Part shown: positions 29,372 to 35,309 of the stretch, piece by piece
How positions within the stretch are numbered: the stretch's first letter is position 1
Layout of the letters: each line of letters opens with the position of its first letter
Origin: an uncultured Flavobacteriaceae bacterium
Lineage (GTDB): Bacteria > Bacteroidota > Bacteroidia > Flavobacteriales > Flavobacteriaceae
DNA length: 64,000 nt
Assembly: GCA_943787295.1 (NCBI GenBank)
Contig: CALSLW010000001.1
Location: forward strand, 248,001 to 312,000
Reading direction: 5' to 3'
The notes under the pieces: model-generated
Database searches by the model: none
Told to the model about the DNA's origin: nothing
What the model saw: only the letters and a program-made list of their open reading frames with translations
Position numbers and translations under genes: made by a program

Positions 29372-30997
<1,626 letters not shown>

Positions 30998-31607: not shown

Positions 31608-32480
31608 ATGACCTTAGCCGAATGGAAGGCCGGTGGAGATTATCACCACTATAACGAATACCAAATTTTTGTTCGAGAAGGCGGCAGTGGAGACACCGTC
31701 TTATTGATTCACGGTTTTCCCACTGCATCATGGGACTGGCAGCAGTTATGGCCGGCATTGACAAAACGATATCATGTGATTACCCTCGATATGCTAGGCT
31801 TTGGGTTTTCTGATAAACCCCGCAACTACCCCTACAGCATCCTCGATCAAGCCGATAGGATAGAGCAGTTGCTCGAGACTAAGAATATTTCCCAAGTTAA
31901 AATCATCTCTCACGACTATGGCGATACCGTAGCTCAAGAGTTACTCGCTCGCTACAATACCCGAAAAGAAAGGGGAGAGGTGGGACTACAAATCTCCCAT
32001 TTATGCCTGTTAAACGGCGGTTTGTTTCCAGAAACCCACCGCCCGCTATTGGTGCAAAAGGTTTTGATGAGCCCCATTGGCTCCATCGTCTCCCGCTTAT
32101 TTAACCGAAAGAAATTAGGCAAAAACTTTAAACGCATCTTTGGTCCTAAAACCCAACCTACCGAAGCAGAACTAGACGATTTCTGGACCCTCTTAGAAGG
32201 TAACGGCGGGCGCTATGTTTTTCATCTGCTAATACGTTATATGGCTGAACGGGTGCAGCATAGAACAGCTTGGGTAGGTGCATTGCAAAACACCACCGTC
32301 CCCTTATGCCTAATCAACGGCACCGCAGATCCCATCTCTGGCCAGCATATGGCCGACCGCTACAAAGTCCTAATTCCCATGCCTCAGGTGGTCGAACTCC
32401 ACGGGATTGGACATTTCCCCCTGATTGAAACGCCAAAGGCAGTGTTAAAGCATTTTTTAGCGTTTGTGGGAGAAGAGTAG
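31608..32480 (+). CDS. Alpha/beta hydrolase, MEST-like
   Basis: A 290-residue hydrolase with L-I-H-G-F-P-T-A-S-W-D-W (about 34-45), a nucleophile-region motif S-H-D-Y-G-D-T-V-A-Q-E-L-L and the block L-F-P-E-T-H-R-P-L-L-V-Q-K, both closely like vertebrate MEST/PEG1 and its bacterial relatives. The nucleophile would be the Asp of H-D-Y-G, as in epoxide hydrolases and haloalkane dehalogenases. Late Asp (G-T-A-D-P) and His (G-H-F-P) complete the set. No signal peptide. Substrate unknown. Confidence 0.85.
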   Translation: MTLAEWKAGGDYHHYNEYQIFVREGGSGDTVLLIHGFPTASWDWQQLWPALTKRYHVITLDMLGFGFSDKPRNYPYSILDQADRIEQLLETKNISQVKIISHDYGDTVAQELLARYNTRKERGEVGLQISHLCLLNGGLFPETHRPLLVQKVLMSPIGSIVSRLFNRKKLGKNFKRIFGPKTQPTEAELDDFWTLLEGNGGRYVFHLLIRYMAERVQHRTAWVGALQNTTVPLCLINGTADPISGQHMADRYKVLIPMPQVVELHGIGHFPLIETPKAVLKHFLAFVGEE

Positions 32481-32618
32481 CTGGCGCGCGTCTATGACGC
32501 GTGACCCGTCTTCGTGATCATTAGAATAGGCTTTGCTCTTGTGTTTTTATAAGTAGATTTTATAGAGATTATAAGATGCGATTTTTTAAATTAAGCACGC
32601 GTTACAGACGCGCGCTAG
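32481..32618. repeat. MITE-like element, copy 1
   Basis: A 138-bp element with imperfect 23-bp terminal inverted repeats: left CTGGCGCGCGTCTATGACG, right (reversed) CTAGCGCGCGTCTGTAACG, three mismatches over 23 bases. The interior has no gene. It begins directly after the stop codon of the hydrolase. A second copy lies at 33536-33672 in the same orientation. No target duplication is obvious. Confidence 0.8.
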
Positions 32619-32625
32619 AGGGTAT

Positions 32626-33486
32626 TTATTCATGAATTATTTCTCTAAGTTCTACCGTTTTCCAGTCTGGTGTATAGTCAATAAAACCTTTAAACATAGC
32701 GATATGACTTGATCCCGCTAAAATCATAATCCTTTTATCTCCTTTTTCAACTGCTTTTTGAATAATAGAATACATATAAAGGTTTCTCCTATACCATTCA
32801 GAAGCTAAGTAAGCTCCTACAAAATTTCCTTCCTCCCCACCTTGATTAGCAAGATTGACGTACCAGTTAATGTCTTCTTTTCTATGCTTAGGATTGTTAT
32901 AATGGTAAAAAATTTCAGACAAAGGTTTATCAGAGGCAAACAGTTTGTTTTCTGTATTTTCCAACCTAGCTAATTCAATACTATCCTTTGCAATTAAATC
33001 AAACTGCTTTGCTTTCTCCATTTGTTGTATTAAACTATCATACCGAAAGCTTGTTCGATAATCCATTGCATATATTTTTTTGTGATTTAACTTTTTTGCG
33101 ATTCTAAATGCCAATTGAGTGATTTCATTCCTTTTTTCTTTGCTATAATCCTTCGTTGAAAAAGAGGTATAAGTTGAATCGAGTTTGTTTTGTAAGTAGT
33201 AAGGGTATTCTACAAAGATTTTATCAGGATGATAGGTTTTAATCTTCTCTGCGATGATTTCAAGTTCACTTTGTTCCTTTTTATTTAAAATATCACGGTA
33301 GTTAACAATGAGTATATCTCCGTTATTCACTGGATTAAAATTTGCAAAGTGGAAGGTTCCAAAGAGTAATACTTCCAGTGGTTTACTTTCTGATTGATGG
33401 TGTTCTACACTGATTTGCTCAGTTCTTTTTCCGCTACAACTTATAAGCATTGTTAATATCAAAATTCTGATTATAAGTTTTTGCAT
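32626..33486 (-). CDS. DUF5694-like lipoprotein
   Basis: A 286-residue protein with a lipoprotein signal (M-Q-K-L-I-I-R-I-L-I-L-T-M-L-I-S-C, Cys17). The mature part begins with L-E-V-L-L-F-G-T-F-H-F, has D-K-I-F-V-E-Y-P, I-Y-A-M-D-Y-R and ends R-I-M-I-L-A-G-S-S-H-I-A-M-F-K-G-F. This pattern matches the DUF5694 group, distantly related to TraB/GumN (ChaN-like) proteins, with conserved G-x-x-H and G-S-x-H. Function is unknown. The gene is more AT-rich by eye than its neighbours and is bracketed by two MITE-like copies, suggesting late acquisition. Confidence 0.78.
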   Translation of the reverse strand: MQKLIIRILILTMLISCSGKRTEQISVEHHQSESKPLEVLLFGTFHFANFNPVNNGDILIVNYRDILNKKEQSELEIIAEKIKTYHPDKIFVEYPYYLQNKLDSTYTSFSTKDYSKEKRNEITQLAFRIAKKLNHKKIYAMDYRTSFRYDSLIQQMEKAKQFDLIAKDSIELARLENTENKLFASDKPLSEIFYHYNNPKHRKEDINWYVNLANQGGEEGNFVGAYLASEWYRRNLYMYSIIQKAVEKGDKRIMILAGSSHIAMFKGFIDYTPDWKTVELREIIHE

Positions 33487-33535
33487 GTTGTATGGTTTAT
33501 TGAACAATGATATTTAAATGTGACAAAATCACCAG

Positions 33536-33672
33536 CTGGCGCGCTTCTGTGATGCGTGACCCATCTTCGTGATCATTAGAATAGGCTTTGCTTTTGTATT
33601 TCATAAGAAGATTTTATTGAAATTATAGGATGCCATTTTTTTAAATAGACACTTATCACAGACGCGCGCTAG
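33536..33672. repeat. MITE-like element, copy 2
   Basis: A 137-bp element similar to 32481-32618 along its full length (shared GATCATTAGAATAGGCTTTG near one third). Ends are CTGGCGCGCTTCTGTGATG and, reversed, CTAGCGCGCGTCTGTGATA. The same orientation as copy 1 makes the pair a direct repeat around the DUF5694 gene. Confidence 0.8.
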
Positions 33673-33713: not shown

Positions 33714-35309
33714 TTAGGTAAAGATAAAATAAGTACTTACAACGATTAAAATCACAATAGCCCCCATCACTTTTACATGTTTCCACGGAGTGATATCGAC
33801 CTGTTCTGTATAGGCTTGTTCATAAGCTACTTCCCGTGGCATAAGCTTTCCAATCAACAACATTATCCCCACATTAAAGAGGAATAAAATCGCCATCACG
33901 TGTAAGAAATGTGGATAAGTCCCGCCGTTTTCAATCACATAATCCTTTAAGAAAAACTGACTAATCGAATACAATATCACCCCAGATCCCATGGCGACTT
34001 TAGCCGCTAGTGCAGGAACGTATTTCGTTAAATAACCTACCAGAATAATCGTTAAAATTGGAATACTATAACAGCCGTTGATTTCTTGCAGGTACCCAAA
34101 GAGCCCTTCAGGAGCGTTAGCGATAGTGGGGGCAATAAACATAGACAAGAGGGCTAGGATAATCCCAAAGGTTTTCCCGGCTTTCACCACTTGGCGTTCA
34201 TCGGCGTCTTTCTTGATGTATTGTTTGTAGATATCTAGCCCAAAAAGGGTTACGGAACTGTTTAAAGCGGAGTTAAACGAGCTTAATATTGCCCCAAAGA
34301 GTACTGCGGCAAAAAAGCCTAATAAGACAGGAGGCAAGACCTTATTGACCAATAGTCCATAGGACTGATCCGCTTGACTGGCGTCTAGCGTTCCGCCAAA
34401 AATATAAAAGGCAATGATCCCTGGAAGTACAACGATGAGTGGCCCTAGAATTTTGACAAAGGCGGCTAGGATCAAACCTTTTTGTCCTTCGACTAGGTTT
34501 TTAGCGGCCAGCGCCCGTTGAATAATAGCTTGATTCGTTCCCCAATAGAAGAGTTGAACCAGCATCATCCCGGTAAAGAGAGTGCTAAAAGGTATGGCAG
34601 AATCATTGTCTCCCATGGCCTTAAACTTAGCGGGGTCGTGGTTGTAAATGGTTTCTATTCCTACCCAGAGACTTCCGTCTCCCACATAGGTCAACCCAAA
34701 GACGGGAATCATCAAGCCTCCAATCAACAGCCCAATTGCGTTCATGGTATCAGATACTGCCACGGCTTTTAAACCGCCAAAGATGGCATAAATCGACCCG
34801 ATCAAGCCTATCGACCATACCGTAACAATCAAGGTGCTGCTTTGGTCCATATTAAAGACCGTTGTTAGATCAAACATTCCAATCAGGGCCACCGCCCCAG
34901 AATAGAGAACAATGGGCAATAAAACTACCACATAGCCACTTAAAAAGAGCCCAGAGGTAATGGATTTAGTCGCGGTATCATATCGACGTTCTAAAAACTG
35001 TGGGACAGTAGTTAAGCCTCCTTTTAGATAGCGGGGCAATAAGATGGTTGCAGTAACCACCATGGCGATGGCGGCAAGGGTTTCCCATGCCATGACCAGT
35101 ATCCCCTCGTTAAAAGCAGAGCCATTGAGCCCTACTAATTGCTCTGTCGAAAGATTTGTAAGTAATAAAGAAGCAGCAATCACGGGAGCCGTTAGGCTTC
35201 TTCCGCCTAAAAAATAACCATCTTCTGTGTTTTCGTCTGTTTTTCTGGTCGCATAATAGGCGACTACACCAACTAATAAGGTGAAAGCAATAAAAATAAT
35301 GAATTGCAT
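33714..35309 (-). CDS. Sodium/solute symporter (SSS family)
   Basis: A 531-residue inner-membrane transporter with about 13-14 hydrophobic helices. The first helix is at 1-18; the L-G-G-R-S-L region near 33-38 and T-N-L-S-T-E-Q-L-V-G-L-N-G near 51-63 are typical of SLC5/vSGLT relatives and hold the sodium-site region. G-G-L-K-A-V-A-V-S-D-T and F-G-A-I-L-S-S-F-N-S-A-L-N-S are further SSS hallmarks. The G-L-N-G and W-G-T-N-Q segments resemble sugar-type members. Substrate cannot be fixed from sequence, and no catabolic genes are adjacent. Confidence 0.9.
   Translation of the reverse strand: MQFIIFIAFTLLVGVVAYYATRKTDENTEDGYFLGGRSLTAPVIAASLLLTNLSTEQLVGLNGSAFNEGILVMAWETLAAIAMVVTATILLPRYLKGGLTTVPQFLERRYDTATKSITSGLFLSGYVVVLLPIVLYSGAVALIGMFDLTTVFNMDQSSTLIVTVWSIGLIGSIYAIFGGLKAVAVSDTMNAIGLLIGGLMIPVFGLTYVGDGSLWVGIETIYNHDPAKFKAMGDNDSAIPFSTLFTGMMLVQLFYWGTNQAIIQRALAAKNLVEGQKGLILAAFVKILGPLIVVLPGIIAFYIFGGTLDASQADQSYGLLVNKVLPPVLLGFFAAVLFGAILSSFNSALNSSVTLFGLDIYKQYIKKDADERQVVKAGKTFGIILALLSMFIAPTIANAPEGLFGYLQEINGCYSIPILTIILVGYLTKYVPALAAKVAMGSGVILYSISQFFLKDYVIENGGTYPHFLHVMAILFLFNVGIMLLIGKLMPREVAYEQAYTEQVDITPWKHVKVMGAIVILIVVSTYFIFT

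Follow-up and report, generated by a model that had tools for sequence, protein, structure and literature searches.

Two REPINs around an apparently acquired DUF5694 gene: a probable REPIN-marked insertion hotspot in a Flavobacteriaceae genome

REPs usually number hundreds per genome; together with the RAYT transposases they have been studied mostly in Proteobacteria, and are seen as domesticated repeats without cargo. Three described systems come closest to the locus considered here. REPINs of Pseudomonas fluorescens SBW25, in the consulted part of their description, are RAYT-linked doublets of inverted REPs that enclose a less conserved spacer and form a single-stranded DNA hairpin (PMC3116915). 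In the Bacteroidetes, RAYT genes of TnpA-REP subclass 2.6 (Bertels RAYT group 5) are flanked, according to the sections consulted, by atypical structures that lack the GT[AG]G tag and have copies elsewhere (PMC6006769). Finally, paired MITEs flank genes or integron blocks, for example in Acinetobacter, with the transposase provided in trans, as the consulted portion of a review has it (PMC10969869).

The locus lies within the window, the whole 64-kb stretch of DNA that was analysed, which forms part of a 2.2-Mb assembly (genome G000). An earlier note had described two elements of 138 and 137 bp in direct orientation, with inverted ends of about 23 bp, flanking a single AT-rich lipoprotein gene, and this description holds (Table 1). 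The elements, E1 and E2, are identical at 117 of 138 aligned columns (84.8%), their longest common exact run is 29 bp, and their ends are the limits of the homology between them. E1 has 23-bp arms that are 87% complementary; those of E2 are weaker, being unlisted as a pair in the inverted-repeat search, and pair at 21 of 23 positions in a single-strand DNA fold. E1 starts right after the hydrolase stop codon (0 bp), and 7 bp separate its other end from the DUF5694 stop codon, so that it occupies practically all the space separating these convergent genes. Scans for promoters and terminators gave results at chance level.

Table 1. Features of the locus, in window positions
Feature	Position	Strand	Remarks
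ABC-F type ATPase gene	29375..30997	+	Conserved left border of the interval
Alpha/beta hydrolase gene	31608..32480	+	Left flank of E1; itself within the variable interval
E1, REPIN (REP doublet)	32481..32618	+	138 bp; gap between hydrolase and DUF5694 genes
Left REP of E1	32481..32503	+	0 mismatches to CTRGCGCGCGTYTRTRACGCGTG
Right REP of E1	32596..32618	-	0 mismatches to the 23-mer
DUF5694 lipoprotein gene, apparently laterally acquired	32626..33486	-	286 aa from the likely start; PF18950
E2, second REPIN	33536..33672	+	137 bp; 5' of the DUF5694 gene, 41 bp from the symporter stop codon
Left REP of E2	33536..33558	+	2 mismatches to the 23-mer
Right REP of E2	33650..33672	-	3 mismatches to the 23-mer; decayed
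Sodium:solute symporter gene	33714..35309	-	Conserved right border of the interval

Each element end is itself a short palindrome with a conserved 5' tag, the build of a REP: CTR, a 9-bp stem, and a 3-nt loop. Over 22 distinct REPs, 94.4% of cells in the stem are paired, with 36 double changes; none of 500 shuffles scored as well, and slid partners scored far lower. (The 22 palindromes were chosen by likeness to the 23-mer, one of them, L126, by the pairing rule; such a choice favours pairing somewhat, yet does not alone yield double changes.) The tag of E1 and E2 is CTRG, and the GT[AG]G of canonical REPs is absent; subclass 2.6, in the part of the survey consulted, does not carry that tag, which is hence no requirement here (PMC6006769). 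As single-strand DNA, both elements form hairpins (z about -3), each made from two inverted REPs and a spacer, as in a REPIN.

The end motif has four matches in the window at up to 3 mismatches (0, 0, 2, and 3), and none in 100 dinucleotide shuffles. High copy number, a usual but not defining trait of REPs, is lacking: G000 contains eight REP half-sites, at two loci, and two full-length elements of this spacer type, E1 and E2, about 1 kb apart. The other four element matches in the assembly are ends only, and lie at one locus (C1:106648-107376). When named genomes were scanned for the exact 23-mer, with one R narrowed to G, at least 80 stretches were retrieved; from the titles of the 80 listed, we take all of them to be Bacteroidota. 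An exact REP 23-mer also lies between ORFs in two related viral contigs of IMG/VR (L291:5719-5742; L292:662-685), with palindromes of the same build nearby.

The earlier note proposed a search for the matching transposase, and one that fits is present in a sister species of the same genus, G013. There, inverted copies of the 23-mer bracket a 203-aa ORF (L013:3709-4380), in the manner in which REPs flank a RAYT gene. Its protein scores 78.2 bits against NF047646 (REP_Tyr_transpos), just below the cut-off of 80, and carries the motifs SHLH and YIHYNP, read by eye. PF01797 (Y1_Tnp) misses this protein and was rejected as a RAYT probe; the G013 protein served as query instead. At E<=1e-15 it has homologs in 33 of 149 family genomes, a sample in which, of the genus, only G000 and G012 were seen. 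Thirty homolog loci, the best one per genome, were inspected for REPs of the same build: ten have them on both sides, eight on one side, and twelve on neither (18/30 flanked), as against a palindrome on 1 of 60 sides in the reversed-sequence control. The palindromes had to lie on the expected side and in the expected orientation, by a rule written after inspection of those loci. In G000, which is 89% complete, no RAYT was found with the G013 query at E<=1e-15. The PF01797 profile likewise gave no match there, a weak test with a model that also misses the G013 RAYT.

Because the same 23-mer brackets the G013 RAYT, the stems covary, and palindromes of the same build occur at RAYT loci, E1 and E2 qualify as REPINs as Bertels and Rainey defined them: non-autonomous REP doublets that form single-stranded DNA hairpins. 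They fit with the Bacteroidota RAYTs (Bertels group 5, or TnpA subclass 2.6 type), whose REPINs are known as a kind; E1 and E2 are further members. The label MITE given earlier does not suit them in its classical sense of a derivative of a DDE transposon: inverted ends are present, but no target-site duplication is found at E1, at E2, at the corresponding element of the close relative G010, or at the L012 elements of the second G000 locus. A single-gene unit between imperfect palindromes of about 140 bp also recalls an integron-like cassette with attC-type recombination sites. That can hardly be the case here: the palindromes match RAYT REPs; attC boxes are not visible by eye; and the integrase-like matches that the genus does contain all fall short of the TIGR02249 integron-integrase cut-off (0/19 genomes above it). 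One tyrosine recombinase of 384 aa in G018 (L084:148-1302) has strong integron-integrase similarity, yet under that cut-off. Other congeners have interrupted pieces of proteins similar to it, and the window genome has a C-terminal one at G000:C1:151030-151149.

The ORF between E1 and E2 matches DUF5694 (PF18950, E=1.2e-49). It is listed from a TTG at 33507; translation more likely begins with the ATG at 33486, given an LISC that we take to be a lipobox-like motif. At 0.314 (window, 0.401), its GC content is the lowest among the 57 window ORFs of 100 aa or more. None of the 18 other genus genomes (19 with its own) yielded the gene; most of them are incomplete (65-95% complete), and some of these absences may be gaps. 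Fixation of the gene and both repeats among relatives, an outcome that the earlier note had considered, is thus not what the genus presents. Across the family the gene is present in 53 of 249 genomes, its own included. The best relative, in another genus (G028), is 72% identical, when PheT of the same two genomes is 55% identical; in four other genera the values for DUF5694 are 51, 47, 38, and 40%, at PheT 56, 56, 55, and 56%, respectively. Because the gene was not found in congeners, is closer to its G028 relative than PheT would predict, and has a low GC content, it seems to be a lateral acquisition from another lineage. (Alternatively, repeated loss within the genus could account for its distribution.)

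Conserved in DUF5694 members are invariant GxxH, E, and GxxH positions. Similarity to TraB/PrgY/GumN is weak, in three of five members (best E 0.0014), and the window protein falls under the curated cut-off. A PDB profile search with the protein gave one noise match, and a single-sequence structure model was too poor for use (mean pLDDT 38.8). DUF5694 is not mentioned in the literature searched.

Candidate vehicles for the gene were considered and set aside. DUF5694 relatives lie on 13 plasmids, all less than 60% identical, and the E1-E2 stretch itself retrieved no similar plasmid; among phages and viral contigs there are no relatives. Nor is the gene a usual fellow traveller of REPs, judging by 29 loci of its relatives, drawn from the 52 other genomes that carry one: with 1.5 kb taken on each side, there were two REP-pattern matches, both within ORFs, and one in the control. 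An ORF beside the closest relative (L144:417-659, G028) looks to us like a fragment of an IS110-type transposase.

The interval from the ABC-F gene to the symporter gene was recovered, wholly or partly, in 14 of 19 genus genomes (none was obtained from G003, G004, G005, G011, and G017). The gene at its left border is presumably of the ABC-F family, a name given from the sequence. In seven distant congeners (G001, G002, G007, G009, G012, G016, and G018), the two border genes are direct neighbours, separated by about 30-330 bp that contain no REP; the 23-mer has no match in those genomes, even with 3 mismatches allowed. In the closest relative, G010, the order is hydrolase, one REPIN, half-REP, DUF5684 gene, cyclase, symporter. 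Its REPIN (L016:6231-6367) occupies the orthologous place, aligns over its full length at 75.4% identity to E1, and has 4 mismatches in its right REP; DUF5694 is missing. A relative that keeps one repeat without the gene, as the earlier note suggested seeking, therefore exists.

Other intervals are shorter or altered. G014 has hydrolase, one half-REP (3 mismatches), and symporter; G013 has ABC-F, one half-REP (3 mismatches), a shortened cyclase, and symporter. (A stricter REP detector leaves out the 3-mismatch REPs of these two genomes.) G008 has ABC-F, one REP, a 234-aa ORF, and symporter, an interval that is doubtful because its bin contains a second symporter copy on another contig (L076 and L289; 81.5% DNA identity over 1.25 kb). 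The contig-cut interval of G015 contains the hydrolase end, cyclase, and symporter, without a REP; that of G006 is rearranged, with a different symporter and no REP. On the contents of the interval compared across genomes, REPs and accessory genes both appear to have entered it within one part of the genus.

Two further observations concern these relatives. Contig L072 of G014 (G014:C96) is a mosaic, in which symporter and ABC-F are 91-92% identical to those of the window, and the adjacent 229-aa protein and PheT only 60% identical to those of the window genome; either recombination or a mixed bin would produce this. Elsewhere, single REPs lie at the same place 5' of a similar membrane-protein-like gene in G006 (L073:90-116) and G013 (L077:3547-3570), where REPs can evidently persist without cargo.

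The history that we consider probable, if well short of assured, is that E1 and E2 represent an old REPIN-marked insertion hotspot, to which a foreign gene and a second REPIN were added through REPIN recombination, and which is now static. Comparison with G010 suggests that a REPIN was probably already at the hydrolase 3' end in the common ancestor of that species and the window species. The foreign DUF5694 gene would then have been added beside the resident REPIN, along with a second copy of that REPIN. E1 and E2 agree against G010 at 24 columns; E1 agrees with G010 at 11, and E2 with G010 at 6. By these counts the E1/E2 duplication postdates the split from G010, but is itself old. (As a yardstick, 62-63% of third codon positions in the border genes are the same in G000 and G010.)

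Presumably, the gene arrived on DNA that also carried a REPIN, and recombination of this DNA with the resident REPIN both inserted the gene and left two direct copies of the REPIN. Such donor DNA has not been seen, since the 29 loci of DUF5694 relatives are without nearby REPs, and the recombination step leaves no unique trace. The small number of REPs in G000 also tells against this history, as does the rarity of REP-bracketed ORFs in other genomes. REPIN recombination would be the most likely route of entry, followed by RAYT action or coincidence. E1 today is probably an ordinary REPIN, a hairpin at the 3' end common to two convergent transcripts. The gene could be lost through recombination of E1 with E2. 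Present mobility, as in the mobilisable cassette envisaged by the earlier note, is not supported: the two elements have diverged by 15%, the search of G000 for a RAYT found none, and full-length copies are not scattered through the genome. The arrangement is better described as old and static, and, with its bracketed acquired gene and its repeat-only relative, looks like a good case of a REPIN-marked insertion hotspot.

The other REP locus in G000 (C1:106648-108077; L012:2648-4078) lies beyond a 303-aa ORF, between two genes that we take, from their sequence, to be rplS and trmD. Its order is REP, 119-aa ORF, REPIN, 199-aa ORF, REP. Each of these two ORFs occurs in 1 of 19 genus genomes, G000 only, and G013 has a single REP and neither ORF beside trmD. 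That both REP loci of G000 coincide with genes not found in congeners is striking, but the sample is two loci whose genes were picked for their REPs, with no control genes.

Coincidence would mean an insertion-tolerant interval, arrival of the gene by some unrelated means, and the later landing of a REPIN copy on its other side. The interval does vary also without REPs (G015 and G006), and DUF5694 relatives have no REPs nearby. Random placement, however, would put the sole two full copies in 2.2 Mb within 1 kb of each other around a gene in only about 0.1% of cases. Moreover, all three genes tested were not found elsewhere in the genus, with the proviso just given on how they were picked. Coincidence thus appears unlikely, even allowing for the rarity of REP brackets around other genes. 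(The REP-centred stretches listed from 80 Bacteroidota contigs contain 12 bracketed ORFs, of which five, that of G013 among them, are RAYTs as judged from the N-terminus, and seven are other genes.) An automatic scan for similar REPIN pairs, which missed E2 and the G086 pair described below because of decayed ends, yielded 39 REPIN units over 1.04 Mb; wherever similar units formed a pair around a gene, that gene was a RAYT (L129).

A younger parallel to the E1-gene-E2 arrangement is found in G086 (L124; G086:C8, 8073-10167). Two direct 155-bp REPINs, 96.8% identical and 720 bp apart from start to start, bracket a 170-aa ORF, and some 0.6 kb farther along lies a RAYT. Beyond the 170-aa ORF come a 150-aa ORF, the RAYT with its REPs, and a 138-aa ORF, all on one strand. 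The non-RAYT ORFs gave no matches in a Pfam search, and a reading of the array as immunity genes finds no support there.

This younger pair near a RAYT bears on a further explanation of the window locus, in which a RAYT acting in trans moves REPIN, gene, and REPIN as one single-stranded unit by way of the outer REPs. Those of E1 and E2 (plus at the left, minus at the right) are indeed oriented as around rayt genes, but the right REP of E2 has decayed by three mismatches. The genus does include a RAYT with matching REPs (G013), but none was found in G000. Both G000 REP loci contain genes not found in congeners, but E1 seems, from G010, to be ancestral at its site, leaving only E2 and the gene as new. 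No second copy of the E1-gene-E2 unit was found in the 2.2-Mb genome, the genus, or plasmids, and RAYTs are not known to move kilobase cargo. On balance, RAYT-borne transfer is no less doubtful than coincidence.

Insertion at a REPIN-marked hotspot remains the preferred reading for the window. A much broader proposal would be that Bacteroidota REPINs and RAYTs constitute a gene-cassette system, in which single genes are gained, lost, and swapped at fixed REP sites with no integron integrase involved. Three instances would then be the window locus, the trmD locus of G000, and the G086 array. The few REP-bracketed ORFs in the 80 stretches and the REP-poor surroundings of DUF5694 relatives argue against a general system, and the proposal is speculative and rather improbable. 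Its interest lies in a REP-poor genome in which both REP loci coincide with genes not found in congeners, and in a relative that shows the REPIN-only state. If REP sites do steer gene gain in Bacteroidota, a domesticated transposase family would be linked to horizontal transfer, a link that is testable by counting. Among the titles and abstract openings examined, none dealt with REPIN-bracketed cassettes in Bacteroidota.

E1 and E2 resemble, and differ from, each of the described systems. Like the Acinetobacter MITE pairs, they are non-autonomous paired repeats around cargo, with the transposase in trans; the Acinetobacter pairs, in the consulted part of that review, are identical and have flanking direct repeats, whereas E1 and E2 are 85% identical, lack duplications, and are of RAYT type (PMC10969869). 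With subclass 2.6, the RAYT loci examined here share flanking structures without GT[AG]G and copies elsewhere in the genome. The SHLH and YIHYNP of the G013 protein differ from the NH[LIV]H and YIH[QN]NP of the subclass 2.6 table, and the sections of that account consulted mention no passenger genes or cargo, whereas E1 and E2 bracket a gene (PMC6006769). With the SBW25 REPINs, as described in the part of that study consulted, they have in common the inverted REP doublet, the spacer, the single-stranded DNA hairpin, and the link to a RAYT. E1 is the longer, at 138 bp versus 71 bp between 16-mer starts for the GI doublet, and, unlike the SBW25 REPINs, E1 and E2 carry a CTRG tag, exist in only two full copies, and bracket an apparently acquired gene (PMC3116915).
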